Positions 6,777 to 34,510 of a DNA stretch of 34,510 bases are shown piece by piece (position 1 is the stretch's first letter; each line of letters starts with the position of its first letter). This DNA is from Verrucomicrobiota bacterium. Its GTDB lineage: Bacteria; Verrucomicrobiota; Verrucomicrobiia; JADLBR01. The notes below the pieces were generated by a model. That model ran no database searches. It was not told where the DNA came from and saw only the letters and a program-made list of their open reading frames with translations. The stretch lies in NCBI GenBank assembly GCA_029560585.1, contig JAKQKQ010000072.1, positions 1 to 34,510 on the forward strand, written 5' to 3'. A program made the position numbers and the translations under genes.

Positions 6777-6814
6777 GAAAATAAAAGGACCCGAATCCTT
6801 TCGGACCCGGGTCC
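6777..6814 (-). terminator. Strong intrinsic terminator, minus strand
   Basis: On the minus strand a 12-bp stem GGACCCGGGTCC / GGATTCGGGTCC closes on a GAAA tetraloop and is followed by TTTTATTTT. The two central pairs are G-U on the minus strand but A-C mismatches on the plus strand, so the hairpin favours leftward transcripts. It shows that something upstream (coordinates above 6815) is transcribed leftward, although no good gene ends nearby. Confidence 0.85.
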
Positions 6815-7722
6815 AAATATTGGGGTTGGGAGTTCGCCACGCTCTCTTTCCCATTTACTGGCATTTGGCGCCCAACGCGGTGGTTGGCTGCCAGCTCCCC
6901 GACGCTATTCTCCACGGCAAGCGGAGTTCTCGGTCTCGTAGCAGGACCGTCCCGGCGTTTTGTATCGCCGGAATTATTGAGTGAGGCCTCTTTGCCCGGT
7001 TCGATCCGCATCTGCCGATGCCGATTCGCCGAACAGGGTGATGAGATTCCCGCAAAGATCTCCGATAACCTCACCACCTTTTAACACAGGGTCTGCCCCC
7101 ACTTTTGGTGGGGCGTTGGCCCTATGCTACGGGTCTGACCTCTTACCTCTCAGGTTGCTTTCCCATTGCAGGTCGGGCGACGCTTCCGCGCCTCCCAATC
7201 ACGGGGCCTTCGGGCTTTGCCACGCCCCTGGAACCCCACGCCGCAGAACCATCCTTTCGCGCGGGCGCACCACTGGGGCACGCCCACCTTCGGGCGGGGG
7301 ACCTCCCGCCGACGAATTCCACGGCGACTGGCTTGTCAGTAGCAACCACTACCCTCTGGGTAACTGCATTTGATCGCCGGGCCGAAACATCCCGGCCATC
7401 ATCACTCGACTCGGCCGCGGTTTCTAATCGCGCCTCGCCGCTCAGGTTTCCCGATCGCATCAACCACCATGTGCGACCATGGCGGCAGAAACCGGTGAAA
7501 TATGCCTTGCTGATCTCCCGTTTCCGCTCAATCCGCAAGGGGCTGGCCCCGCCAGCGGGAACCAACCTTTGCTCGGTCGCCCGAGTTCATCCTGAGATCA
7601 CACCAGAGAATCACGCGCATTCTCCAGCACAATCCGTTCTTTCAAGGAACCTAAATCAACTTACTGCGCAAACCCAAATCGTCAAGGGGTCCACCTTTGT
7701 AAATATCGCATCGACAACAGGT

Positions 7723-7742
7723 TGTGAATAATCTGTGAATAA
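7723..7742 (-). promoter_or_regulatory. Tandem pair of consensus DnaA boxes
   Basis: Two copies of TTATTCACA (minus strand; TGTGAATAA at 7723-7731 and 7734-7742) lie 11 bp apart, one helical turn. Both fit the TTWTNCACA DnaA-box consensus fully. An A-run (7818-7826) is about 75 bp away. They may be part of a replication origin, a DnaA-titration site or a DnaA-regulated promoter. No dnaA, dnaN or gidA gene is nearby. Confidence 0.5.
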
Positions 7743-20140: not shown

Positions 20141-21499
20141 CTACACCACCCCCCGCGTCCGGCGCACGCTCCGGGTGAACCTCAGGAAGTGCGCGGAACA
20201 GGAGATGCACGGATCGTAGTTCCGGATCAGGTGCTCGCTGCGCAATCTCGCGACATCATCGGACAGCTCGTTCAACTGCGGGGCCAGTTCCACCAGATCC
20301 TCCTCCATCACGCCCAAGTTCTGGCCCGTCGGAGCCATGATCCGCGCAGAGGCTATCGTGCCATCCGCCTCCGTCCGATACTGGTGCCAGCAGATCCCGC
20401 GCGGCGCCTCGGTGCCATGCCCCCCGATCCCCGCGCGTGGCTCGCACGGCACCCGCGATCGCGCCGGCGGGCTGTATTCCGCCAGGATGTCGTGCGCCAG
20501 CGCCAGCGCGTGCACCGTCTCCAGCCCCCGCGCCAACAGCGAGAGAAAGTTGTTTCGCCACGGCAGCTTCCTGCCCACCCGTTCGCACACCAGGCGCAAC
20601 AGCTCCCGCGCGCGCGGGTGTAGTTTCTCCCCGTTGAGGTTCAACCTCGCCAGTGGCCCCACCAGATAGTGCCCCCGACCCTTCACCGCCGCGTGCAGCG
20701 CCGTCGAATGCGCCACGTGCCGCTCCTCCACCACGGAGAGATACTCATCCTGATCCACGTCCAGCCCCTTGTTTGAACGGATGCGACCCAGGTTCATCGG
20801 ATACCCGTCGACAGGGCACAGGGACACAAACTCGTAATCGCGCTCGAGTTCGGGAAACTTGATCTTCTCCGCCAAAAACAGCGTCAGCTCAGCCATCTCG
20901 TCGATCGCGATTCTGACCTGGCGCGCCAACTCGTGGCACGCCGCCCGCTCCGGAACCGCATGGAATCCCCCCACGCACATGCCCACCGGATGCACCGCCC
21001 GTCCACCCACCAACGTCACGATCGCGTTGCCCAGCTTCTTCAACCTGAGTGCCTGTTTCACGACCGGCCCGTGGCCGTTGACCAACGACAGTGCGCTCTC
21101 CTGACCGAGGAAGTCCGGCAGGTGCAGCAGAAACATGTGCAGCACGTGGCTCTCGATCCACTCCCCGCAATAGATCAGATCCCGCAGCGCGCGGATCGCC
21201 GGATCGATCTCGTTGAAGATCCCCATCGCCTTCTCCAGGGCATGGCTGGAACTCGCCTGGTACGCGACCGGACAGATCCCGCAGATCCGGGCCGTGATGT
21301 CGGGCACCTCCCGGAAATCCCGGCCCCGCAAGAATGCCTCGTAGAATCGCGGCGGCTCGTAGATGTCCACCCGCGCCGACACGCACTTGCCATCCACCAT
21401 CTCGAGGTGGAGGCCCCCCTCCCCCTCGACGCGTGCCAGCGCCTCCACCCGAAAGGTCCGGGTCTTGCCCTCAGCGGCCCTGCTTCTCGATTTGCTCAT
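20141..21499 (-). CDS. hydA: [NiFe] hydrogenase large (alpha) subunit, group 3b type
   Basis: The 452-residue catalytic subunit binds the NiFe(CN)2CO centre. The L1 motif is [10 protein letters not shown] with Cys73 and Cys76. The L2 motif is [10 protein letters not shown] with Cys431 and Cys434 near the end. Processing after His437 would release a 15-residue peptide ([15 protein letters not shown]), matching the endopeptidase gene downstream. All four Ni-ligand cysteines are present and the early Glu of VEGEGG is kept. The N-terminal half ([18 protein letters not shown]) is of the group 3 HydA/HoxH kind. The ATG at 21499 overlaps the delta-subunit gene by 29 bases. Subgroup 3b is inferred from the beta-gamma-delta-alpha gene set. 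Confidence 0.95.
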
Positions 21500-22292
21500 A
21501 GTGGTCGCTCGCCTGCTTGAAGGGTTCCAGATATCCGTTGAAAGATCGCAGCTTCCGCTTCATGTCCCTTGCCGTCAGCCCCAGCCCCGTCAATCGCTCC
21601 CCGAAGCTCCTCATGTTCGGTTGCTCAGACGGCCCAAAACAGCCGTAGCAACCCCGGTGAAGCGCCGGGCATAGCGCCCCGCAGCCCGCCTGCGTCACCG
21701 GACCCAGGCAGGCCTCGCCCTCGGCCACCATGACGCACGGCAGCCCCCTGCGCTTGCACTCCATGCACAACGAGTAGGTCGGGATATTCGGACGCCGTCC
21801 CACCAGCAGCGCACAGATCAGCTCAAGCAACTGGCGCTCGTTGACCGGGCACCCGCGCAGCTCGAAATCGACGAACACGTGCGACGCGATCGGCGTCGCC
21901 GTCTCCAGTGACCGGATGTACTCCGGGTGCGCGTACACCGCCCCGATGAAATCTCCCAGGTCCGCCCAGTTGCGCAGCGCCTGGATTCCCCCCGAGGTCG
22001 CGCACGCCCCGATGGTCACTAGGAATTTGCAGTCGCGACGCACCTGCCGGATCCGCCGCTCCTCCTCCGGCGTGCTGATCGACCCCTCCACCAACCCCAC
22101 GTCATACGGCGGCGGCAACGCCCGGCTCCTCGCCTCCAGAAAATACGCGATCTCCACGGCCCCGGCCAACGCCAGGAGTTCGTCCTCGAGATTCAGCAGC
22201 GAGAGCTGGCACCCGTCGCAACTGGAGAATTTGAATACGGCCAGGCGCGGCCGGGTCCCGGCCTCCGGCGGACTCAGCAGCGATCCCACCAT
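21471..22292 (-). CDS. hydD: [NiFe] hydrogenase small (delta) subunit, group 3b type
   Basis: From the ATG at 22292 the protein has 273 residues. A strong Shine-Dalgarno (GGAGGAG) lies inside the end of the gamma gene and the two genes are separated by one base (TGA-T-ATG). Cysteines for the proximal Fe-S cluster are Cys25 and Cys28 (FSSCDGCQ), Cys97 (GACATSGG) and Cys148 (RGCPV). Further cysteines at 176-195 (CMEC, LPC, EAC) and 204-218 (GCGALC, GCYGC) can hold two more clusters. The protein passes electrons from the NiFe site to the beta/gamma subunits. There is no Tat signal, so the enzyme is cytoplasmic. Confidence 0.94.
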
Positions 22293-22293
22293 A

Positions 22294-23166
22294 TCAGATC
22301 TCCTCCTTCGCGAAGATGTCCGCGATCTCGTCAAAGCAGAACACCGGGCCGTCCCGACAGACGAACTTGGATCCGTACTGGCAGTGGCCACACCGCCCGA
22401 AACCGCAGTTCATGTTCCGCTCCAGGCTCACGTAGACCTGCGACGGCGGCACGTGCAACTGCAGGAAGTTCCACGCCGCCACCCGATTCAGGATCCTCGG
22501 CCCGCAGACGATCACCACCGTCTGCCGCGCGTTGACCTTCACGCGCCGCAGCAGGTTCGTCACCACGCCCACCGGCCCCGTCCACCCCCCCGTCGCATTG
22601 TCCACCGTCACCAGCACATCCAAAGCATGGTCCCCCGACCACCGCTCCAACTCCTCGACGTAGAGACGATCCTCCGGCGTGCGGCACCCGTAGAGCAGCA
22701 CCACGCGCCGACAGTGTTCCCGATGCTGGAGCAGCCAGTAGATCACCGGTCGCAGGGGCGCGAGCCCGATGCCCCCTGCCAGGATCACTACGTCCTTGCC
22801 CTTCAGTTGCTCCAGCGGCCAGCCCCGCCCGAATGGCCCCCGGAGCCCGATCACGTCACCCGCCCCCATCCGCGCGATCGCCCGCGTCACCGTGCCCACC
22901 AGGCGGATCGTGTGATCCAGCCGCCTCGGCTGGTGCGGGTTGGAACTGATCGAAATCGCCGCCTCCCCCACCCCAGGCACGTACACCATGTTGAACTGCC
23001 CGGGCGCGAACCCGTACGTGTCCCGGATCCCCTCGTCGCAGAACTCCAGCGTGAATGTCTTCGTGTTGAAATTCTCCTCCCGCACCGCCAGAATGCGCGC
23101 CGGCACCGGCACCCAGCTGTCCATCCCACACACCGGCTCCGGCCTCCCCAGCATCTTCGCGCTCAT
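22294..23166 (-). CDS. hydG: Hydrogenase gamma subunit, FAD/NAD(P)-binding diaphorase
   Basis: The 290-residue protein is of the ferredoxin-NADP reductase type. The FAD-binding part has [20 protein letters not shown] near 70-90. The NAD(P) part has [13 protein letters not shown] and [11 protein letters not shown]-terminal [2Fe-2S] motif has Cys254, Cys259, Cys262 and Cys270 ([11 protein letters not shown]). It links the hydrogenase to NAD(P)H and in sulfhydrogenases also supports sulfur reduction. The ATG at 23166 overlaps the beta-gene stop as ATGA, so translation is coupled. Family resemblance to dihydroorotate dehydrogenase PyrK subunits is expected and excluded here by the neighbours. Confidence 0.94.
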
Positions 23167-24323
23167 GACGTCACCTCCACCGCGCCGGGCGCCATCGCCT
23201 GCCGGATCCGCGCCGCCTCGGCCGTCAGATCGATCCCCGCCGGGCACCAGGTGATGCATCGCCCGCAGCCCACGCAGCCGCTGCAGCCAAATTGGTCAAA
23301 CCAGGTGCAGAGTTTGTGCCGCATCCAATGCCGGTACCGCCCCCGCACCGTGCTGCGCACCGGCCCCGCCGTCGTGTAGCTGAACTGGTGCGAGTGACAC
23401 GACTCCCATTGCCGCCACCGCGTCACCGTCGCACTCCCCAGCTCCGTCTGATCCATTACCGTCGAACAAAAACATGTCGGGCACACCATCGTGCAGTTGC
23501 CGCAGGACAGGCACCTCTTCGCCACCTCGTCCCACTGCGGGTGCTCGACCGCCCCGTCCAAAAGCTCCTTCAACCCGGCCACCTCCAGCCGCCGCCCCAT
23601 GTGTTCCCGCGCGTTCTCCAGCTTGATCTCCGCAAGTTCCAGTTCCGCCGAACTCGGCTCTCGCACCGGCAGTCTCCCCAATAGACTCCGCCCGGCCTCC
23701 GAGCCCGCCTCGACCACGAACCCCGCACGCAATTCCGTCAGGCACAGGTCGTATCCCCCAGAAGCCGCCGGACCCGTCCCCATCGACGCGCAAAAACACG
23801 TCCCGGCCGGCCGCGTGCAATTCACCACAACCAGCAGCGCCCTCCGCCTCGCCTCCCCATACAGATCCTCCGCCGCACACCGCGGCGTCCCAGACTCTCC
23901 CACACCAAAGGCCCGATCCTGCACCCGCAGCGCCGCCAGATCGCACGGCCGTATCCCCACCATCGCCAGCTTCGACACCTGCGCCGGCCCAGCGTCCAAC
24001 ATGAACCTCTCCCCTTCCACGTGACACCGGTACATCCGCTGCATCGCAGGAAAGAAAAACGACTTCGGGCTGTTCATCCCAACCGCACACTCAAACCCCA
24101 GATCCGGATCTCCCGGCCCCAGCCGATACCTCCCCCCTTCCTGCTCGTCCCTCACACCACGCGCCAAATCCTCCGCCGACCCCACCTCCCCAAGCAGCAA
24201 CACCGCCCCCTCACGCCGCGGACCAATCACCGTATATCCATCCGCACGCAATACCCCGATCAACTCCCCAAGCGCGCCCCTCGGCAAAAAACTCCGCCCC
24301 CCTCCCACCTCATCCGTCGCCAT
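23163..24323 (-). CDS. hydB: Hydrogenase beta subunit, 4Fe-4S electron-transfer protein
   Basis: The ATG at 24323 has a good Shine-Dalgarno (GGAGGAGGG) and gives 386 residues; the frame open to 24386 lacks better signals. Two ferredoxin-type clusters are evident: Cys271, Cys274, Cys277, Cys281 (CLSCGNCTMVCP) and Cys347, Cys350, Cys353, Cys356, Cys360 (CSGCVGCGRCITWCP). Earlier conserved parts are VGIRPCDLAALRVQD and NCTRPAGTCFCASM, typical of the HydB / sulfite reductase AsrA-like family. It carries electrons between the small and the flavin subunits. It is the first gene of the operon, and its promoter should lie between 24324 and 24490. Confidence 0.93.
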   Translation of the reverse strand: MATDEVGGGRSFLPRGALGELIGVLRADGYTVIGPRREGAVLLLGEVGSAEDLARGVRDEQEGGRYRLGPGDPDLGFECAVGMNSPKSFFFPAMQRMYRCHVEGERFMLDAGPAQVSKLAMVGIRPCDLAALRVQDRAFGVGESGTPRCAAEDLYGEARRRALLVVVNCTRPAGTCFCASMGTGPAASGGYDLCLTELRAGFVVEAGSEAGRSLLGRLPVREPSSAELELAEIKLENAREHMGRRLEVAGLKELLDGAVEHPQWDEVAKRCLSCGNCTMVCPTCFCSTVMDQTELGSATVTRWRQWESCHSHQFSYTTAGPVRSTVRGRYRHWMRHKLCTWFDQFGCSGCVGCGRCITWCPAGIDLTAEAARIRQAMAPGAVEVTS

Positions 24324-24652
24324 TTCACCCTCCTCCTTCCCGACATCCCCGAGACGGGAATTGCACGATAAATCCACCGCGATCAAACCCCATTCTTACG
24401 AACGTTCCTTGCGCGGGTTCCCGCATGCCCCGTCCACGTGGCTGCCGCTCCCCCTTCACGTGTTAGGTTACTTTAAGAGGGGGCCAATTGCAAAAAGAAA
24501 GCGTGATGGCGCCTAGGGTGCAGGGACAGGCGCGCTAATTGAGGAATCACGATGCAGGCAACCATGGCATTGCATCTGCCTATACGTTGGGAAGGACTGA
24601 GCGTTCGGGCGGTGAAATCAAAATCCATCGACCGGGCGAAACCTCCCTGACG
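24324..24652. other. Spacer between the giant gene and the hydrogenase operon
   Basis: These 329 bases contain no convincing gene. They should hold the end of the giant-gene transcript and the hydrogenase promoter (both minus strand). A terminator-like hairpin with a T-rich tail lies at 24492-24551. No good -35/-10 pair stands out. A single FNR half site (TTGAT, near 24382-24386 on the minus strand) lacks its partner. Confidence 0.5.
24492..24551 (-). terminator. Candidate terminator of the giant gene
   Basis: On the minus strand CGTGAT pairs with ATCACG and an inner CGCCT pairs with AGGCG across a 13-base loop. An unpaired bulge interrupts the two stems. The tail CTTTCTTTTTG follows. It sits about 100 bases after the giant-gene stop and before the hydrogenase operon. 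The long imperfect stem makes this moderately likely. Confidence 0.45.
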
Positions 24653-27600
24653 TCACCACCGAACACAGGCCCGGTAGAACCGAGCAGGATGCTGGCCGGC
24701 TTCAGGGTCTATGACTTCGGCAAACCCTTCGAAGCCAGAAACAAGTCCGCCGGGGAGTGGATTCCAGCGAACAAGATCGGCAGAGAAATCGACCTGATAG
24801 GTCCTATTTGAGTAAGCGTGAAAACCAATAATGGCCTGACCATTGACAAGCCTGAACGACGCAATCGTGAAGCAGCTGGCGCGGTCGTGCGGGTCGGTCC
24901 CTGCCAGATATTCTTCCAGATTCGAGAGTCCGTCACCGTCAGGGTCGAGTGGCGCGTCGGAGGGATCATTGGGATCCAATCCGTTGTCATCTTCATATGC
25001 GTCGTCCATGCCGTCGCCGTCGGTGTCACGAAGCACAAGGGTCAACGTCAGGGCGACATTGTTGGCGGGGACCGGATCGGGCTGGAGCGCGTCAATGGTA
25101 GCACTATTGGTCACGAGACCGGCGGCGACGGGGGTGACGTTCATGCTGAGCGTCGCGAACTGATCGATCGAAAGCGTCCCGATCGACCAGACGACGGTGC
25201 CGGCGATGTTGGCCCAGGTACCTTGGCTGGCTGAAGCCGAACCGAAGGCGACATCCGCAGGCAATGAGTTGGTAACGACCACGCCGTAGGCCGCATTGGG
25301 ACCGATGTTGGTGACGACGACAACGTAAAGGAGGTTGCTGCCAAACCAGACGGGATCGGGCGAATCCGATGCGGTGACAGCGAGGTCGGCGGGCGCAGTG
25401 ACGGCACTCCCGTAGGCAAGGATGTTCGCGCGCAGATTGGCGGCCTCGGGTTGCGGGTTGTGATAATTGTCAGTGGTCATCCCACCGAACAGAGCGTGGC
25501 CCGACCCATAATCCATCTCCCCGAGCACAATCCGGCCTGTGGCGGTATTGGTGATCACGGCCGAAAGCCCGGTTCCCGAGACCGTGGCGTGTCCAAAGTC
25601 AGTACCGGTCCAGGATGCACCGACAGGAGTGAAAGGCCCTTGCCCGATCGGATGATCCGTCGAAACCAGCCCACCAGTTGCTGTGGTGTCCGAGTATGTC
25701 AACGTCACGCCAAAGCCGAAGCTCATCCCGTCGCCCTCATTGGGGGCCGCATTGACGAAGAGGCTACCTCCGGCGTTGACCCAGTTCTGGATGGTTGCCG
25801 TGTTGGCTGTGAGGAAACTCTCCAGTTCGTCTGCGCCGTCGTCGCTACCATCCATGAAGATGAATCTCATGTGGGGCGCAAACAGCGACACGACGTCGGC
25901 CGTCTCGAACCGCAGATCATACCAGCCGTTTGTTCCGAAAACCTTATTCATGGCCGTCTCATTGGCGGTGGAACCCCAAGGGGAGCCAACCGTCGACCTC
26001 AGATAGGCAGCCTGCGGGAGGTCGGTATCAATAACGGCGAGGGTCGCAGACGACGGCGAAACGAGGATCCCGCCACCGGAGGGATTGAGGAGGGACAGCA
26101 AAACGGTCTCATCGCCCTCGCGGATTTCGTCATCCAGAATCGGCACATAGAAGGTGTTGGTCAATTGCCCCACGGCGAATGTCAGGGTGCCGGTCGCCAT
26201 CAGATAGTCGGCGCCCGCCGTGGCCGTGCCGTTGCTGGTCGCGTAGTCCACCGTGACGCCCCCGAGGGCGCCGTTGGCCCGCACCACCTCAATGCTGTGG
26301 AGCATGTTGCTCTCAGTGACAAAACTCGTCGCCGAGGCGAACCGGATCATGTCGTCCGCGGTGGTGAAGGACCACACCGCCCCGGTGGTGACCCCCACGA
26401 CGTTGGACGCCAGCACCTGCCAGTAGTACGTGGTGCCGAAATCCAGCAGGTCGGGATCCCAGGTGGTCTGGGTCAGGTTGCTGGCGACGAGGTCCAGCGC
26501 CGCCGCGTTGGTGCCAAAATAGACGAAGTACTGATTGAGATCCGTGCGGCAGGGCCACTGCGCGGCATTCGCGAGCAGCCGGGCCATGTCGGCGTTATAC
26601 GAGTAGCAGTCCCACCCGACCAGCACCACCCCGCCGGCGCCGAAACTCCTGGCGGCCACCATGGGGCGACCGTCGGCCGTGACCGTCACCAGAACCTCGG
26701 CGTTGGTCACGCTCGTGTACGCGACGCTCCCGTCCATGGCGGTGAACGTCGCGGCGACTCCCTCCGTGATCGGATGGGCCGCGGCGACTGTGGCGCTCCG
26801 GTCGCCGGTGCTGTCACCATAGACGACAGTCATGAGCCCCGCGTTCGCCAAAAACGCCGCCGACCCGCCGGTCGGGCTGTAATCGCAGACTATTACCGTG
26901 CCTCCAGCCGCCACAAAATTGCTCAGCGTGCCGGCGAGGTTGGCGCCGAATGCGCCCATCGACGTGACATCCCAGCTCTCCTGCTCGGGCATCAGGAACA
27001 CGTCCTTCCCGACCAGCTCGAACGCGAGCGTCGCGGGATCCTCCGCCGCGGTGGCGGTCACATTGACGTTGCTGAGGCTGCCGGTGATGGCAGCCACCGT
27101 GTTCTCATACTCGCCCCCGGCCGAATTATCGGAATGCCCGTTGAACACCAGCATCTCGATGGCCGAAGCATCGGTGGCCGCTTCGGTCATAAGCTGTCCC
27201 ACGGCCGCTCCGCCCCCGGGGTTATTCCACGACAGATCGAAGTCGGTCGGCACACCCACGGCCCCGTTGGTGGGACTGGGGTTGAAGGGTTCCGGCGGCG
27301 GAGGCGGCAGTTCCACGACGTTCAATTGGGCCTGGCGCGTCTGTGCCACGCCGCTGGTCAGGTTACTGATGATGGCCACGGCGCTGTAATTGCTCACGAC
27401 CAGACCATTGGCGTCAGCCGTCAGGCTCAGGGTGACGCTGTTGGTCTCGCCGGCCGCCAGGTTGCCGGAGCCGGGCTCCAAAGAGATCCACGACTCGGTG
27501 CATGCCGCTGCCCAGCTGACGTTGGACGGGCCCAGATTCACCAGCGTGTAAACCACATTCGAGGGCTCAAACGGGCCACCGATGTAGCCGGACGCGCTCA

Positions 27601-30600
27601 AACCCGTGCCGGGGCTCACCAGTAGGTCGTCCTGCCGAATCCCGGTGACCGCGATGTCGTCGATGCCGATGCCGTCGGTGGCGATCGCGTAGTTGTCGTA
27701 CTGGTTGAATCGGATCATGAACCTGCCGTTGTACGAGAGACCGTGCGCCGCGATGGCCGCATCGAGATCAACGGTGAACTGCTGGTAGGTGGTAGTAAGG
27801 CTCCTGAGGCCTTGGACCTCGTACCAGGTGACCCCGTCCTCGCTGATGGCCACGCCATCGAAATCCGCGCCGCCAATGAACGGCATGCTCGGAGGCCCGT
27901 GCGATTCATCGCTGTATCCCAGAGCCCAGAAAGCGAGCACCACGTTGGTGTAACCCTCCAGATTGATGGTCAGGGTGAACTCGTTCCGGGAATACAGGCT
28001 GCCGTCCACGGAATCGTCCATCGTCAGGTGGTAGCCGCCCCCGTGGGGGCCGTTGGCGCCCGTCAGCTGTGTCCGGTACTCGCCGGTGCCGCTGACCTGC
28101 CAGTAGGGCCTTACCCCGCCGCTCTCGAAATCCTCGTAGAAGGGCATCCTGGCGACGTTGTCGTCATCGACAATCGTCAGTGAGGCCGTCGACGGGGAAA
28201 CCAGTACGGCCCCACCGGAGGGATTGCCCAGGGACAACAGCACGGTCTCGTTGCCCTCCCAGATGTCGTCGCCCAGGATTGGCACCTCGAACGTGTTGGT
28301 GAGCTGCCCCGCGGCAAACGTCAGGGTGCCGGTCACCATCAGGTAGTCCTCACCCGCGGCGGCCGTCCCATTGCTGGTCGCGTAGTCCACCGTGACGCCC
28401 CCGATGGCGCCGTTGGCCCGCACCACCTCAATGCTGTGGAGCATGTTGGCCTCCGTCACGAAGTTGGTCGCCGACGCGAACCGGATCATGTCGTCCGCGG
28501 TGGTGAAGGACCACACCGCCCCGGTGGTGACCCCCCAGGCGTTGGACGCCAGCACCTGCCAGTAGTACGTGGTGCCGAAATCCAACAAACTGGGGTCCCA
28601 CGTGGTCTGGGTCAGGTTGCTGGCAACCAATGACAGGTCCGCAGCGTTCGTCCCCAGATACACAAAGTAGTTTGCGGAGTCTGCGCCACCGCCTCCAACC
28701 CAAGTCAACGCGTTGGCCATCAGTCGGGCACCGTCTGTTGCGGCCTGCCAGAAATCGCTCCGCACGTCCGATGATGGAGGGTAAAAAGCCAAGTCAGCGC
28801 GCGGGGTGTTTCCGATAACCTTTGTCACCACAAGTGGGCGTCCATCAGACCAGTCCGCGACACGCGTGCTCCCCGCCGAAATGTCAAAGGTGACCGTGCG
28901 GTAGCTACTGCTGCCTCCGTTGAAGTTTGTCACGCCCTGCAGGATCGGGTGGCTCGGATCATAGACGGTCCCTAGGGTCGCGCTAGAACCGGAAGTGGAA
29001 CTGCCCCGTGGGATGGCATAATACCCCTGGCTGTTCCAGCGTCCCTGCATCCAGGAACTGCCTGCACTTTCAAACATCATGCAGACGACGCCACCTCCCC
29101 AATCCACATAGTCCGCCATGACATCGCCAAGCGCCGTCGCATTGGCATAGCCAGCGTTCGAGAAAACCACGACCGCGTCGAACGCCTGCAGTTCCGCCAA
29201 CGTCGGGGTCACCAAGGACACATCGATGACGGTCACGGTGTTAAACTTGCCGGTTCCAATCAACTTGGCCTGGATATCTGTCAAACGGGATGCGTCGGCC
29301 GCCCCACACACCACCACATTCATCCCGCCCAGGGCCATGATCCCCGCGTCAGAGGCGGAACGCACATTCGCGATAGCGTCCGGTTCCGTGACGTTGACCG
29401 AAGTTGCGTCTCGTCCGTCGCCGGTCGCAGTCGTGCCCGACGCGACGGTGATGGGTCCGCTCCGTATCCCGCTGCGCTCGATGATGGAAAGCACCGAGGC
29501 CGCGACTCTCGACGGGACTCCCGGCTCGGCCTGTGAGGCTGCGCCTGAGTTGTTCCACAAGAGGGTCGCGTCGATCGGCACGCCCATGGCCCCGTTGGTG
29601 GGACTGGGGTTGAAGGGCACCGGCGGCTCGTTGTCCAAGACCTGAACGGTGCCGGTACCGCCCGCGAAGCCGGGGGCCTCCGCGGTGACGTCGACGGTTT
29701 GGGCGCCGTCGGGCTGGGCGTCGTCGGCGACCGTCAGGCTGAACAGGGCGTTGCTCTGGCCCGCCAGGATCGTGACGCTGGCGGGCACCGAGAGCTCGGT
29801 CGTGTCGCCCGAGGCCAGGGCGACGTCCAGGTCGTTGCTCAGCACCCCGCTGATGGCGATCCGGCCCGCGTTGGTCAGGGTCCCGTCGCCCTCGGTGACC
29901 TGCGGCGGCACGGCGACCATGAGGTTGGTGTGCTCGTTGTCGAAGACCGTGATGGCGGCGGCGCCATCGGTCCAGTTCTCGAAGTGGGCGGTGATGGTCG
30001 CGCCCTGGGCCCCGTCGATGAGGTTGTTGTCCACCACGGTGATATTGAAATTCGTGGAGGTCTGGCCCGCGGCGATGGTGACCGTGGCGGGAACCAGGAT
30101 CTTGGCCGTGTTGCTGGAGATGAGGCTGGCCATGATGTTCGTGGACGGCGGCGCGCTCACCGAGAGGATACCCGCGTTGGTCAGCACGCCCTGCCCTTCG
30201 GTCGCGCTCGAGGGCGCCAGCAACGTCAGCGTCGCGGTCTCGTTGTCGTGGACGGCCATCGTGGCCCGCCCGCTGCCGTAGGACAGCGCCGATGCCGTCA
30301 CCGTCGCCAGCTGGGGGCCATCCAGCTCCACGTCGTTCTCGACGGTCACATCGAACGCCACGTTGGTCTGGCCCGCCGGGATGATCACGCTGGACGGCAC
30401 GGTCGCCTCGGTCGTGTCGCTGCTGGCCAGAGCCACCGTCAGGTCCGCCCCCGGCGCGACAGAAACGAAGACCTGGCCCCCACCGGCCAGCACGCCGTCG
30501 CCCTCGGCCGCATCGGGCGGCAGCGCCACCGAAAGGTCGGCCACATTGAGGGCGCTGAAGACGTTGCCCGTGCCGCTGTGCCCGCCGCCGTCGTCGGCCC

Positions 30601-33600
30601 GCAGGTACATGTTGGTGGCCACCTCCAGCACCGTGACAGAGCCGGTCCACACGCCGCCGACGAAGCTCCCGGAGCTGGTCGGGGCGATCGCGACTGGGGT
30701 ACCGGTGCCCACGGTGTAGCGGAGATCCACGAACCACCACCGGACCGAGTCGGTGGTCGTCGGAAAGGCGTCGCCGGAACTATAGTAGCTCTCATTGATG
30801 GCGCCATCGGGGAAACTCGTCGCGCCATCGTAACGATAGTAGTACATCAAGCCCCCGGTATAGACGGCCACCCGGTAGCGGCTGCCGGCGGTCAGCGCCA
30901 CCGGCGTCGCCAGCGCCGTTTCCACCCACGTGCCCGGCGCGCTGGTCACCGCCTGGCTCGCCAGGAGCACCCCGCCGTCCGTCCACAGGGAGACCTTGGT
31001 GCCGGAGTAGTGCCGGACGTGCGTGACGGTCAGGTCGTTGGTTGGCGTGAAGGAATAGCCGAGCGTGAACGTCCCGCTGCTCGAGTAGCTGTGAGCGATG
31101 TCCCCGAGGATGCGGTTGGTGCTCGCCCCCCCGCCGCCCGTGGCGCCGCCCAGCGCGACCCCGCCGGTGAAGGACGCCACCGTGTTGTCCGCCGCGTCTT
31201 TGGCCTCGATGGTCACCGGGATCGCCAGGCCGACATATTGCGTCGGGGCCACGCTGCTCCAGCCGAAGTGGTGCAGCGGCCCGACCACCACGTCGAAGGG
31301 CGCGCTGGTGCCCACGTGGCCAGCCCCGTCGTCGGCAGAGAGCCGCACATTAGTATCTGGCGTCTGAACCGCCATGCTGCCCGCCCACCGGCCGTTGCTG
31401 AAGGTTCCCGCGGAGGCCGGCGTCACCACCACCGCGCCGCCATCCCCGGCGCCACTGAGGTAGGCCGGGCCGGGGTAGTTGCTCATCGTCACGTTGTTGA
31501 CGTCCTGGGCGGTGAGGGTCACGCCGAAGGCCGTGCCGGCATCCTTCGGGCCGGAGATCGCCCCCCAGGCGAAGTGGTGCAGGTCGTTGTCCAGCACGCT
31601 CACCGTCGCGCCGCTGTCGGCGAACCCGGCAGCGCTCGCGGTGACCCCGGCCAGCTGCGTGCCATCGGTCTCCGCGTCGTCCTCAACGGTCACGCTGAAT
31701 GCGGCATTGGTCTGGCCCGCGGGGATGGTGACGCTGGCGGGCACCGATAGCTCGGTCGTGTCGCCGGAGGCCAGGGCAACGACCAGATCCGTTCCGAGCG
31801 CGCCGCTGATGGCGACGCGGCCAACGTTGGCCAGTGTGCCCTGACCCTCGCTCACGGCACCCGGCATCGTGAGCGCCAGGTTCGTGCCCCACACCGTCAG
31901 CGTTATTGGCCGCGCCTGCACGACCCCGCTGGTGGCGTTGCTGAAGCCCACCGTCGCGCCGTAGGTCCCCACCTCCAGGCTGTCCGCTTCCGCGCCGAGC
32001 GATACCGTCACCCCGTTCGTCTGGCCCGCCGCCAGGACGCCACTGGCCGGCGCCACGCTCACCCAGTTCGACGGGCACTCCGCCACCCACGCCAGGTTCG
32101 ACGCGCCAGAGTTGGTCACCGTGTAGACCTTGTTGGAGGGCCCAAACGGCCCACCAACATATCCGGAAGCGTTTAGACCGGTGGAGGGGGTCACTGCCAG
32201 ATCATCCGGTATGCCGAAATTCACGATCTTCGCTAAATCCGCCACGGTAATCCCCGACAGGGCACCCAATCCCAACGTAGTCAGCTGGGGCGCCTTGCTT
32301 ATGGCCGTGCTGCGGTTCGGATTCTGTGCGCCAAAATGCATCACGATCTTGGTCTCACCAGGTGCCAGCACCACCTGGTATTCGTACCCTAGGTATTCCG
32401 TGCTGTAACTCACTGCCGACGGTCGCTGTCGCCCGCTGTCGTTGCCAATGACATGCAATACCGTCGGATCACCCGAGCCGTCGCTGTCGTCGGTCACAAT
32501 CCAATTGTCGGTCGCCTCAAACAGCGTATCGCCGTCCGATGTCCTAACGAGCACGGTACTCCCGTCTGACCCCAGATTCGTGTCCAGCCGCACCCGGTTC
32601 GTCACTGTGGACACCCCAATGTTTTGGATGACCTCAAGGAACCGTGCGTACGCCTGACTGGTCGGAACGTAAATCCGGCGGGAGGTGACAACTCCCCCGT
32701 TTGTAACCGAGCCAATTCTCACTTCCCGTCCCTCGGCAAACAGCATTCCACTGGAAAAACTCGGGAAACCGCTCAGCACATGCCCACCGTCGTAGGCATC
32801 GCTTGTCCCGTTCAAGATGTTTCCATTCTGCTGGATGTCCCAAAGATAGCTGCTTCCATCGTACAGACTCACTGGCAATGCGGTCGGCGTGCCATCGTCA
32901 TCCGTGATCGTCAGCGTCGCCCGATAAGGTGACACAAGGACGGTATTGCTAGAGGGATTGCTCAGGGCCAACAGGACCGTCTCATTACCTTCGGAAACGC
33001 TGTCACCAAGGATCGGCACCTGGAACGTGTTGGTGAGCTGCCCCGCGGCGAAGGTCAAGGTGCCAGTCGTCATCAGATAGTCGGCGCCCGCGATGGCCGT
33101 GCCGTTGCTGGTGGCATAGTCCACCGTGACGCCGCTGAGGGCGCCGTTGGCCCGCACAACCGTCACGCTTTGGAGGACGTCGGCCTCGAGGACGGAACTC
33201 GTCGCCGAGGCGAACCGGATAATGTCGTCCGCGGTGGTGAAGGACCACACTGCGCCGGTGGTGACCCCCCAGACATTGGATGCCAGCACCTGCCAGTAGT
33301 ACGTGGTGCCGAAATCCAACAAACTGGGATCCCAGGTGGTCTGGGTCAGGTTGCTGGCGACCAGTGACAGACTGACGGAGTTCGTCCCGAAATACACAAA
33401 GTAGTTCGCCGAGTCTGCGCCACCGCCGCCAACCCAAGTCAACGCGTTGGCCATCAGTCGAGCGCCGTCTGTCGAGGCAGTCCAGAAATCGCCACTGATG
33501 TCCGATGACACCGGGTAGAAAGCTACGTCAGCACGCCGCGCGCCGCCGATGTCCTTTGTCACCACGAGCGGCCGGCCATCAGACCAGTCCGCGACGCGCA

Positions 33601-34510
33601 CGCTTCCCGCCGAGATGGCAGTCGAGCTCGGGCGGTAGCTGCTGCTGCCTCCGCTGAAGTTTGTCACGCCCTGAAGGATGGGATGGATCGGATCATAGAC
33701 GGTCCCAAGGGTCGCGCTAGAACCCGAAGTGGAACTGCCCCGTGGGATGGCATAATACCCCTGGCTGTTCCAGCGCCCCTGCATCGGGACGACGCCCACC
33801 TCAAACATCATGCAGACGACGCCCCCGCCCCCATCCACGTAGTCCGCCATGGCATCGCCAAGCGCCGTTGCATTGGCATATCCATAGTCAGAGAAAACCA
33901 TGACCGCGTCGAACGCCTGCAGTTCCGCCAACGTCGGGGTCATCAAGTAGACATTGATGATAGTAACAGAATTGAACTGCCCGGTTCCAAGCAACTTGGT
34001 CTGGATATCTGTCAAACGGGACGCGTCGGATTCCGCCCCACACACCGCCACATTCATCCCGCCCAGGGCCACGATCCCCGCGTCAGAGGCCGAACGCACA
34101 TTCGCGATAGCGTCCGGTTCCGTGACGTTGACCGAGGTTCCGCTCCGCCCGCCTCCGCTCGCGGCCGTGCCCGACGCGACGGTGATGGGTCCGCTCCGTA
34201 TCCCGCTGCGCTCGATGATGGAAAGCACCGAGGCCTGGACTCTCGACGGGACTCCCGGCTCGGCCTGTGAGGCTGCGCCTGAGTTGTTCCACGAGAGGGT
34301 CGCGTCGATGGGTACGCCCATGGCCCCGTTGGTGGGGCTGGGGTTGAAGGGCACCGGCGGCTCATTGTCCAGGACCTGAACGGTGCCGGTGCCGCCCGCG
34401 AAGCCGGGGGCCTCCGCGGTGACGTCGACGGTTTGGGCGCCGTCGGGCTGGGCGTCGTCGGCGACCGTCAGGCTGAACAGGGCGTTGCTCTGGCCCGCCA
34501 GGATCGTGAC
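24653..34510 (-). CDS. Giant secreted modular protein (at least 3285 residues; N-terminus outside window)
   Basis: The frame is open from the right edge to the TGA at 24653-24655. The first ATG in the window (34354) is inside a repeat module and is not the true start. Numbering from it, modules are: FN3-like halves (1-60, 315-375) around an inserted glutamine-amidotransferase-like domain (98-311); Calx-beta (376-488); an unrecognised part (489-715); BACON-like (715-825); Calx-beta-like (825-925); two LHHF-type domains (925-1265), the second with a DUF4082-like insert; three Calx-beta-like repeats (1270-1575). A second FN3/amidotransferase/Calx-beta set follows (1580-2065), then a MAM-like domain (2070-2238), BACON-like (2238-2348), a third set (2352-2778), another Rossmann-like domain (2778-2985), DUF11 (2985-3105), TSP3 Asp repeats DTDGDGMDD and DPDGDGLSN (3108-3155) and a C-terminal beta domain. 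It is probably an extracellular Ca-binding adhesin or matrix protein. Confidence 0.9.
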   Translation of the reverse strand, partial: VTILAGQSNALFSLTVADDAQPDGAQTVDVTAEAPGFAGGTGTVQVLDNEPPVPFNPSPTNGAMGVPIDATLSWNNSGAASQAEPGVPSRVQASVLSIIERSGIRSGPITVASGTAASGGGRSGTSVNVTEPDAIANVRSASDAGIVALGGMNVAVCGAESDASRLTDIQTKLLGTGQFNSVTIINVYLMTPTLAELQAFDAVMVFSDYGYANATALGDAMADYVDGGGGVVCMMFEVGVVPMQGRWNSQGYYAIPRGSSTSGSSATLGTVYDPIHPILQGVTNFSGGSSSYRPSSTAISAGSVRVADWSDGRPLVVTKDIGGARRADVAFYPVSSDISGDFWTASTDGARLMANALTWVGGGGADSANYFVYFGTNSVSLSLVASNLTQTTWDPSLLDFGTTYYWQVLASNVWGVTTGAVWSFTTADDIIRFASATSSVLEADVLQSVTVVRANGALSGVTVDYATSNGTAIAGADYLMTTGTLTFAAGQLTNTFQVPILGDSVSEGNETVLLALSNPSSNTVLVSPYRATLTITDDDGTPTALPVSLYDGSSYLWDIQQNGNILNGTSDAYDGGHVLSGFPSFSSGMLFAEGREVRIGSVTNGGVVTSRRIYVPTSQAYARFLEVIQNIGVSTVTNRVRLDTNLGSDGSTVLVRTSDGDTLFEATDNWIVTDDSDGSGDPTVLHVIGNDSGRQRPSAVSYSTEYLGYEYQVVLAPGETKIVMHFGAQNPNRSTAISKAPQLTTLGLGALSGITVADLAKIVNFGIPDDLAVTPSTGLNASGYVGGPFGPSNKVYTVTNSGASNLAWVAECPSNWVSVAPASGVLAAGQTNGVTVSLGAEADSLEVGTYGATVGFSNATSGVVQARPITLTVWGTNLALTMPGAVSEGQGTLANVGRVAISGALGTDLVVALASGDTTELSVPASVTIPAGQTNAAFSVTVEDDAETDGTQLAGVTASAAGFADSGATVSVLDNDLHHFAWGAISGPKDAGTAFGVTLTAQDVNNVTMSNYPGPAYLSGAGDGGAVVVTPASAGTFSNGRWAGSMAVQTPDTNVRLSADDGAGHVGTSAPFDVVVGPLHHFGWSSVAPTQYVGLAIPVTIEAKDAADNTVASFTGGVALGGATGGGGASTNRILGDIAHSYSSSGTFTLGYSFTPTNDLTVTHVRHYSGTKVSLWTDGGVLLASQAVTSAPGTWVETALATPVALTAGSRYRVAVYTGGLMYYYRYDGATSFPDGAINESYYSSGDAFPTTTDSVRWWFVDLRYTVGTGTPVAIAPTSSGSFVGGVWTGSVTVLEVATNMYLRADDGGGHSGTGNVFSALNVADLSVALPPDAAEGDGVLAGGGQVFVSVAPGADLTVALASSDTTEATVPSSVIIPAGQTNVAFDVTVENDVELDGPQLATVTASALSYGSGRATMAVHDNETATLTLLAPSSATEGQGVLTNAGILSVSAPPSTNIMASLISSNTAKILVPATVTIAAGQTSTNFNITVVDNNLIDGAQGATITAHFENWTDGAAAITVFDNEHTNLMVAVPPQVTEGDGTLTNAGRIAISGVLSNDLDVALASGDTTELSVPASVTILAGQSNALFSLTVADDAQPDGAQTVDVTAEAPGFAGGTGTVQVLDNEPPVPFNPSPTNGAMGVPIDATLLWNNSGAASQAEPGVPSRVAASVLSIIERSGIRSGPITVASGTTATGDGRDATSVNVTEPDAIANVRSASDAGIMALGGMNVVVCGAADASRLTDIQAKLIGTGKFNTVTVIDVSLVTPTLAELQAFDAVVVFSNAGYANATALGDVMADYVDWGGGVVCMMFESAGSSWMQGRWNSQGYYAIPRGSSTSGSSATLGTVYDPSHPILQGVTNFNGGSSSYRTVTFDISAGSTRVADWSDGRPLVVTKVIGNTPRADLAFYPPSSDVRSDFWQAATDGARLMANALTWVGGGGADSANYFVYLGTNAADLSLVASNLTQTTWDPSLLDFGTTYYWQVLASNAWGVTTGAVWSFTTADDMIRFASATNFVTEANMLHSIEVVRANGAIGGVTVDYATSNGTAAAGEDYLMVTGTLTFAAGQLTNTFEVPILGDDIWEGNETVLLSLGNPSGGAVLVSPSTASLTIVDDDNVARMPFYEDFESGGVRPYWQVSGTGEYRTQLTGANGPHGGGYHLTMDDSVDGSLYSRNEFTLTINLEGYTNVVLAFWALGYSDESHGPPSMPFIGGADFDGVAISEDGVTWYEVQGLRSLTTTYQQFTVDLDAAIAAHGLSYNGRFMIRFNQYDNYAIATDGIGIDDIAVTGIRQDDLLVSPGTGLSASGYIGGPFEPSNVVYTLVNLGPSNVSWAAACTESWISLEPGSGNLAAGETNSVTLSLTADANGLVVSNYSAVAIISNLTSGVAQTRQAQLNVVELPPPPPEPFNPSPTNGAVGVPTDFDLSWNNPGGGAAVGQLMTEAATDASAIEMLVFNGHSDNSAGGEYENTVAAITGSLSNVNVTATAAEDPATLAFELVGKDVFLMPEQESWDVTSMGAFGANLAGTLSNFVAAGGTVIVCDYSPTGGSAAFLANAGLMTVVYGDSTGDRSATVAAAHPITEGVAATFTAMDGSVAYTSVTNAEVLVTVTADGRPMVAARSFGAGGVVLVGWDCYSYNADMARLLANAAQWPCRTDLNQYFVYFGTNAAALDLVASNLTQTTWDPDLLDFGTTYYWQVLASNVVGVTTGAVWSFTTADDMIRFASATSFVTESNMLHSIEVVRANGALGGVTVDYATSNGTATAGADYLMATGTLTFAVGQLTNTFYVPILDDEIREGDETVLLSLLNPSGGGILVSPSSATLAVIDTDLPQAAYLRSTVGSPWGSTANETAMNKVFGTNGWYDLRFETADVVSLFAPHMRFIFMDGSDDGADELESFLTANTATIQNWVNAGGSLFVNAAPNEGDGMSFGFGVTLTYSDTTATGGLVSTDHPIGQGPFTPVGASWTGTDFGHATVSGTGLSAVITNTATGRIVLGEMDYGSGHALFGGMTTDNYHNPQPEAANLRANILAYGSAVTAPADLAVTASDSPDPVWFGSNLLYVVVVTNIGPNAAYGVVVTNSLPADVAFGSASASQGTWANIAGTVVWSIGTLSIDQFATLSMNVTPVAAGLVTNSATIDALQPDPVPANNVALTLTLVLRDTDGDGMDDAYEDDNGLDPNDPSDAPLDPDGDGLSNLEEYLAGTDPHDRASCFTIASFRLVNGQAIIGFHAYSNRTYQVDFSADLVRWNPLPGGLVSGFEGFAEVIDPEAGQHPARFYRACVRW
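26020..27300 (-). repeat. Module copy C (FN3 / amidotransferase-like / FN3 / Calx-beta)
   Basis: This third occurrence of the module begins PFNPSPTNGAVGVP and ends in a Calx-beta repeat. Its FN3 and Calx-beta ends match copies A and B closely. The inserted Rossmann-like domain is a different sequence (EMLVFNGHSDNSAGG...), so the insert has been replaced or has diverged far more than the flanks. Confidence 0.75.
28160..29776 (-). repeat. Module copy B of the giant-gene duplication
   Basis: This copy aligns with copy A (32890-34510) at an offset of about 4734 bases. Identity is highest at the 5' side of the gene: 29643-29776 equals 34377-34510 except for one base seen. It falls in the Calx-beta part (28200-28440). 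The inserted amidotransferase-like domain is shared with copy A. Confidence 0.85.
32890..34510 (-). repeat. Module copy A of the giant-gene duplication (continues past the window)
   Basis: This copy begins outside the window in a Calx-beta-like repeat ending VQVLDNEPPVPFNPSPTNG. The same junction occurs in copy B. The window therefore ends inside a long near-identical repeat. Confidence 0.85.

Follow-up and report, generated by a model that had tools for sequence, protein, structure and literature searches.

The structured region in the window (the whole 34.5-kb stretch of Verrucomicrobiota DNA that was analyzed) is, with near certainty, a member of the MISL family of bacterial RNAs (RF03079), and comparison with its relatives supplies likely true ends for this RNA, a boxA-like signal that all the relatives examined share, and a fold with pseudoknots whose base pairs can be tested. 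Among the classes of large bacterial RNA, MISL is one for which, to our knowledge, no function is known. The Infernal search against Rfam that the initial annotation had proposed gives a full-length match on the minus strand (7592..6829; model positions 1-751 of 751) with 493.1 bits and E 8.7e-149, far above the family's gathering threshold of 274.6 bits. MISL is the sole Rfam family above threshold in the window, and a search with its model finds a single copy in the 7.06-Mb genome. The matched core (6829..7592) includes the long-range helix that closes the multiloop and has few non-standard pairs. The consensus helices of the Rfam model are present in the window RNA, as are the near-invariant strands UAAGAGG, AGACCCGU, GGCCAACG and GUGGCGAAC. 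The strand AAGACCCGU may have a short likeness to 23S rRNA. The region had been annotated as an orphan with no matching RNA class, which is incorrect, since the class is catalogued; the suggestion of a large noncoding RNA is borne out by the same match. A MISL window is also mentioned in a Ribonanza preprint (PMC10925082).

The copy in the window is an ordinary member of a class already catalogued, and what is added here is relative to the Rfam covariance model. That model begins at GGAUAAUC and ends at the last hairpin. It lacks the boxA-like element and the 5' helix (about 58 nt here) as well as the terminator, and, being nested, it cannot display the pseudoknots seen here. The comparison shows a MISL RNA that is predicted to be longer than the Rfam-catalogued form, with a boxA-like start and several knots outside the model. 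The proposed ends would be the proper boundaries for probing or cryo-EM.

The strong minus-strand terminator that first drew attention to the region is real. It occupies 6779..6814 (-), with a 12-bp stem (6814-6787, 8 of the pairs G-C), a GAAA loop and a U-rich tail (TTTTATTTTC) to about 6779, and it begins 14 nt past the end of the core match. A generic terminator scan proves little by itself (3.5 such sites are expected by chance in 3.5 kb), so the argument is conservation: in 111/120 distinct full-length relatives the Rfam end is followed by a conserved (C)ACCCCC linker and then by an intrinsic terminator. At the other end, a promoter-like site lies at 7658..7685 (-), with TTGACG (7685-7680), a 16-nt spacer and TAAGTT (7663-7658), and predicts a start at about 7651. 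The window TAAGTT ends 7 nt before the boxA-like element, and G001 has equal spacing. Of the 58 relatives that are not of the Opitutaceae type, 25 have a TANNNT hexamer ending 7 nt before the element and 7 have one ending 6 nt before it, with about 1.2 expected per offset. From this spacing and the position of the terminator, the transcript is predicted to have its 5' end at the boxA-like element or right beside it and to run from about 7651 to about 6784 (-), or about 865 nt; these predicted boundaries are well supported by the comparison. The initially described stretch, 6777-7722, takes in all of it. Opitutaceae-type sequences lack a canonical -10, with TANNNT at offset 6 in 2/60. The 60 Opitutaceae-type promoters are A-rich at -44 to -39 before the boxA-like element and their -10 region tends to be CA-like, which suggests an UP element combined with an unusual -10, or perhaps another sigma factor.

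No convincing gene had been seen among the hairpins of this region, and that description holds. The fold of the 867-nt minus strand is better by 4.1 sd than that of dinucleotide-shuffled sequences, of which 20 were used at this length. The frame at 7143-7565 (-) has no Pfam match and is rejected as protein-coding, and the ORF at 7105-7731 (+) likewise has no Pfam match. In 120 relatives the longest stretch without a stop in a sense frame is between 59 and 235 aa (median 123), and no frame length is common to them; this survey takes only stops into account and does not test coding. A repeated GGTCAGACCC / GGCAGACCC pair (7089-7136) had been noted as further structure. The pair is present, but it is not a biologically meaningful repeat, as only one copy is conserved as such. 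The first copy falls within UAAGAGGUCAGACCCGU, a junction strand that is almost invariant. The second makes up the 3' side of a local hairpin that varies, most relatives having GCCGUCCC there.

One trace of MISL at the RNA level comes from the only match in IMG/VR. In this contig, L210 (3300034676_001488), a sense MISL segment of 476 nt, which shares 88.7% identity with the Opitutae copy L147, is joined to a single-stranded RNA phage genome that carries a maturation-protein gene (Phage_mat-A, E 7e-28). In a second contig, L217 (3300034669_001154), the phage recurs at 99.4% behind another 5' sequence, which argues that L210 is a chimera. An ssRNA phage passes through no DNA stage, so both contigs derive from RNA; they look to be chimeras from metatranscriptome assembly that were entered as viral genomes, and the MISL RNA of a relative was therefore present as RNA in the sample. 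This shows, indirectly and from one chimera, that a relative of the MISL RNA in the window is transcribed.

A number of helices lie outside the Rfam model. Immediately upstream of the core is the 5' helix P0 (7595..7635, -; about 17 bp here). Its cells are paired in 474/564 cases, compared with at most 382 in 500 shuffles, and several of its pairs show compensatory types; its fold has a z of -3.2, and it folds locally in four test sequences. Other helices are long-range or knotted, all on the minus strand. PK1 pairs GGUUGC (7342..7347) with GCAACC (7153..7158), 98% paired with 50 two-sided changes. PK2 joins CUGGC of a hairpin loop (7551..7555) to GCCAG (7328..7332), with 99.7% pairing and 29 two-sided changes. 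In PK3 the hairpin-loop strand UGCUA (6939..6943) pairs with UAGCG (6903..6907); it is 100% paired and has 31 two-sided changes. An H-type pseudoknot is formed by UCGCA (7472..7476) and UGCGA (7455..7459; 93%, 47 two-sided changes), and a kissing loop by GAAAC (7420..7424) and GUUUC (7384..7388). With 91% pairing and 11 two-sided changes, the kissing loop is the weakest of the set. Finally, UGAA in the loop of the boxA-like hairpin (7644-7641) pairs with UUCA (7496..7499) of the conserved strand UUUCACC, 97% paired with 29 two-sided changes. The variable position in this pairing is A-U in 29 sequences, U-A in 15, C-G in 7, U-G in 4 and G-C in 3 (n=65).

These helices come from an unbiased scan of all 4-6-bp helices, scored by APC-corrected covariation over 119 sequences with an effective number of 43. 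The scan recovered the Rfam helices, which account for most of its top-scoring covarying helices, along with several others that score 11-48; the remaining background was below 5 except for the stem of the boxA-like hairpin (6.0). The helices were rechecked against shuffles and slid partners in an independent MAFFT alignment (A1) of 66 diverse sequences. For the six new helices, 0/300 shuffles reach the observed paired fraction, two-sided changes or covariation. Shuffle controls take no account of relatedness, and more weight therefore goes to the compensatory types and to the fact that slid partners fail. PK1, the H-type pseudoknot and the boxA pairing exceed shuffles and slid partners by a large margin. 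The margin is small for the kissing loop and for PK3, which exceeds its slid versions by less than PK1 and PK2 do. P0, PK1, PK2, PK3, the H-type pseudoknot and the boxA pairing are thus well supported by comparative evidence as real; the predicted kissing loop is supported less strongly. A fifth boxA pair (7640-7500) is not claimed, since it is paired in only 37/65 sequences, nor is a covarying helix from the scan at 7172-7169/7053-7050, which looks misaligned in the window's own sequence. The same scan shows a local hairpin change at 7197/7174.

Such an architecture resembles that of ROOL, GOLLD and OLE, which like MISL are large, multi-domain, pseudoknotted bacterial RNAs. ROOL, GOLLD and OLE have been seen by cryo-EM to form homo-oligomers (PMC12286853). 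None of the Rfam models for these three RNAs reaches threshold in the window. They differ as well in that MISL relatives are found in bacterial genome assemblies with no match in phage records. A phage-borne RNA like GOLLD or ROOL was considered and rejected: searches of phage and plasmid records gave no match, two further viral scans for MISL found nothing, and the single IMG/VR hit is the chimera described above.

The boxA-like element, GUUCCUUGAAAGAAC, lies at 7636..7650 (-), outside the Rfam model, and is also a 4-bp hairpin. An element of the form G-N-TC-N-TTGA-N-A is found 39-156 nt upstream of the model start in 120/120 distinct full-length relatives, a few of which deviate from it once; in four of the 120 it lies further upstream than usual. 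The commonest forms are GTTCCTTGATAGAAC and GTTC(A/C/T)TTGAAAGAAC. In 9/11 genomes the exact pattern has a single occurrence, located at MISL; the other two genomes lack it. For comparison, boxAs could be read in the rRNA leaders of 12 of the same genomes (e.g., TGTTCCTTGAAA, TGCTCTTTGAAA, CGTTCTTTGAAA and AGATCTTTCACA); most lie 120-180 nt upstream of 16S, and the one in G351 lies 228 nt upstream. A 16S gene was not found in the window's own genome, and the comparison is with other genomes. With a matrix built from these 12 rRNA-leader boxAs, the best hit is the MISL element in 117/120 leaders, and 97% of MISL leaders score above the 99th percentile of 2,400 background windows. The element matches the boxA of its lineage in sequence and stands upstream of a long untranslated RNA in 120/120 MISL genes. 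As a sequence feature, a boxA-like element of MISL is well supported.

It is rather likely that MISL is a complete, free-standing, single-copy chromosomal gene whose boxA-led, untranslated and structured RNA acts in trans, with recruitment of Nus factors at its start. In E. coli it is established that NusB-S10 binds boxA and counters Rho (e.g., PMC4807359). The MISL element is like the boxA of rRNA operon leaders in sequence, in preceding a long structured RNA that is not translated, and in a presumed need for protection from Rho, which for rRNA is established in E. coli. By analogy with rRNA leaders, the element (predicted target GUUCCUUGANAGAAC) would recruit NusB-NusE(S10) to RNA polymerase, and this recruitment would protect the long untranslated transcript from Rho. 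The strand N'UCACC, about 145 nt downstream, could once made pair with the UGAN half of boxA; the pairing would make boxA part of the folded RNA, in competition with the binding of Nus factors. More tentatively still, and with some doubt, the antitermination signal may be part of the fold in this non-ribosomal RNA, such that boxA loads NusB-S10 and N'UCACC, once transcribed, then takes UGAN, the correct folding of the 5' region displacing the Nus complex. The finished RNA would act in trans, probably as an RNP or RNA assembly. Both the antitermination role and its handover to folding are inferred. Should the boxA prove functional, MISL would be another large structured RNA that uses processive antitermination.

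The element can be read in another way, as only a structural hairpin whose loop forms a pseudoknot with N'UCACC and which is unrelated to Nus factors. This is possible, if on the doubtful side. UGAN is a structural partner, so part of the likeness to boxA could come from the fold: UGAN-N'UCA covaries with A-U, U-A, C-G, G-C and U-G types, and the GUUC/GAAC stem of the hairpin is 91% paired. The element would also be 5'-terminal. In this it is unlike the rRNA boxA, which lies some distance into its transcript, and half of it also pairs inside the RNA. The Opitutaceae-type MISL boxA (GTTCCTTGAT) differs, moreover, from the two Opitutaceae rRNA-leader boxAs that were read (GTTCTTTGAA and GCTCTTTGAA), a comparison limited to two leaders because the SSU rRNA of most Opitutaceae genomes was not found with either the family model or a primer pattern. 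Against a purely structural role, the stem pairs show no compensatory change, and the first G is invariant even where the stem is lost. For example, Akkermansiaceae-like sequences (GATCTTTGACAGAAA, GATCTTTGACAGACT and GCTCTTTGACAGAAC) have a broken stem, yet G-N-TC is kept. The match to the rRNA boxA of the same genomes is also far above background, which again argues for the boxA reading.

Two further explanations concern the gene as a whole. A cis-acting leader or riboswitch-like element that controls a downstream gene is improbable, even though typA (27 of 157 loci) and cysK (17 of 157) are codirectional downstream in some lineages. The terminator would end such an RNA in nearly all relatives, the downstream genes vary by lineage and are often in the opposite direction, and in the window the next ORF, about 200 nt past the core end, is of doubtful coding value. 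The terminator and the varying neighbors indicate instead a free-standing gene. That different genes lie downstream in different lineages, typA and cysK in some and others elsewhere, argues for action in trans, and lineage-specific neighbors fit a stably inherited independent gene rather than a leader. A decayed retroelement or other mobile insertion, proposed initially on account of dense hairpins with no gene, is scarcely conceivable now. The covarying structure is intact and conserved, no protein domain is present, no intron or retron family appears in the Rfam scan, and phage and plasmid records have no match; there is one copy per genome, except in two relatives with two, and in Opitutaceae relatives the neighbors are fixed in the order hrpB-MISL-typA. 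A group II intron or retron was rejected specifically, as none of the 19 window ORFs scanned, which include those adjacent to the RNA, has a reverse-transcriptase domain.

The MISL model matches in 8/57 sampled relatives and in 31/388 genomes sampled across the phylum, and the matches are concentrated in one family (f15, taken as Opitutaceae). In a search of 84,980 species genomes, at least 118 stretches match a pattern for the conserved core; among the 80 matches listed, all titles are Verrucomicrobiota except one that reads plain 'bacterium'. One f15 genome, G043, has no MISL match, possibly through loss or because a divergent copy was missed by strict filters. The two genomes with two copies hold L060 (G189:C33:31713-32464) with L049, and L050 with L051. 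In the second G189 copy the near-invariant strands are altered (CAAGAGGUCAGGCCCGU), and the boxA-like element and a terminator-like hairpin are kept.

Over the 157 loci the neighbors of MISL are lineage-specific, with hrpB divergent upstream in 45. In Opitutaceae (e.g., L036, L047 and L046), MISL sits between divergent hrpB and codirectional typA in 17 loci. The products of hrpB (a DEAH helicase) and typA (a ribosome-associated GTPase) are both RNA- or ribosome-related, which may or may not bear on the function of MISL. The window has a double cNMP-binding protein upstream and short ORFs downstream. Elsewhere in the window, a 3233-aa ORF at 24653-34354 (-) has Calx-beta, DUF11, DUF4082 and ThuA-like stretches, and its product is probably a giant surface or secreted protein. 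A hydrogenase-like cluster at 20141-24386 (-) has, consecutively, a match to the NiFe hydrogenase large subunit, Oxidored_q6, an NAD/FAD oxidoreductase and 4Fe-4S proteins.
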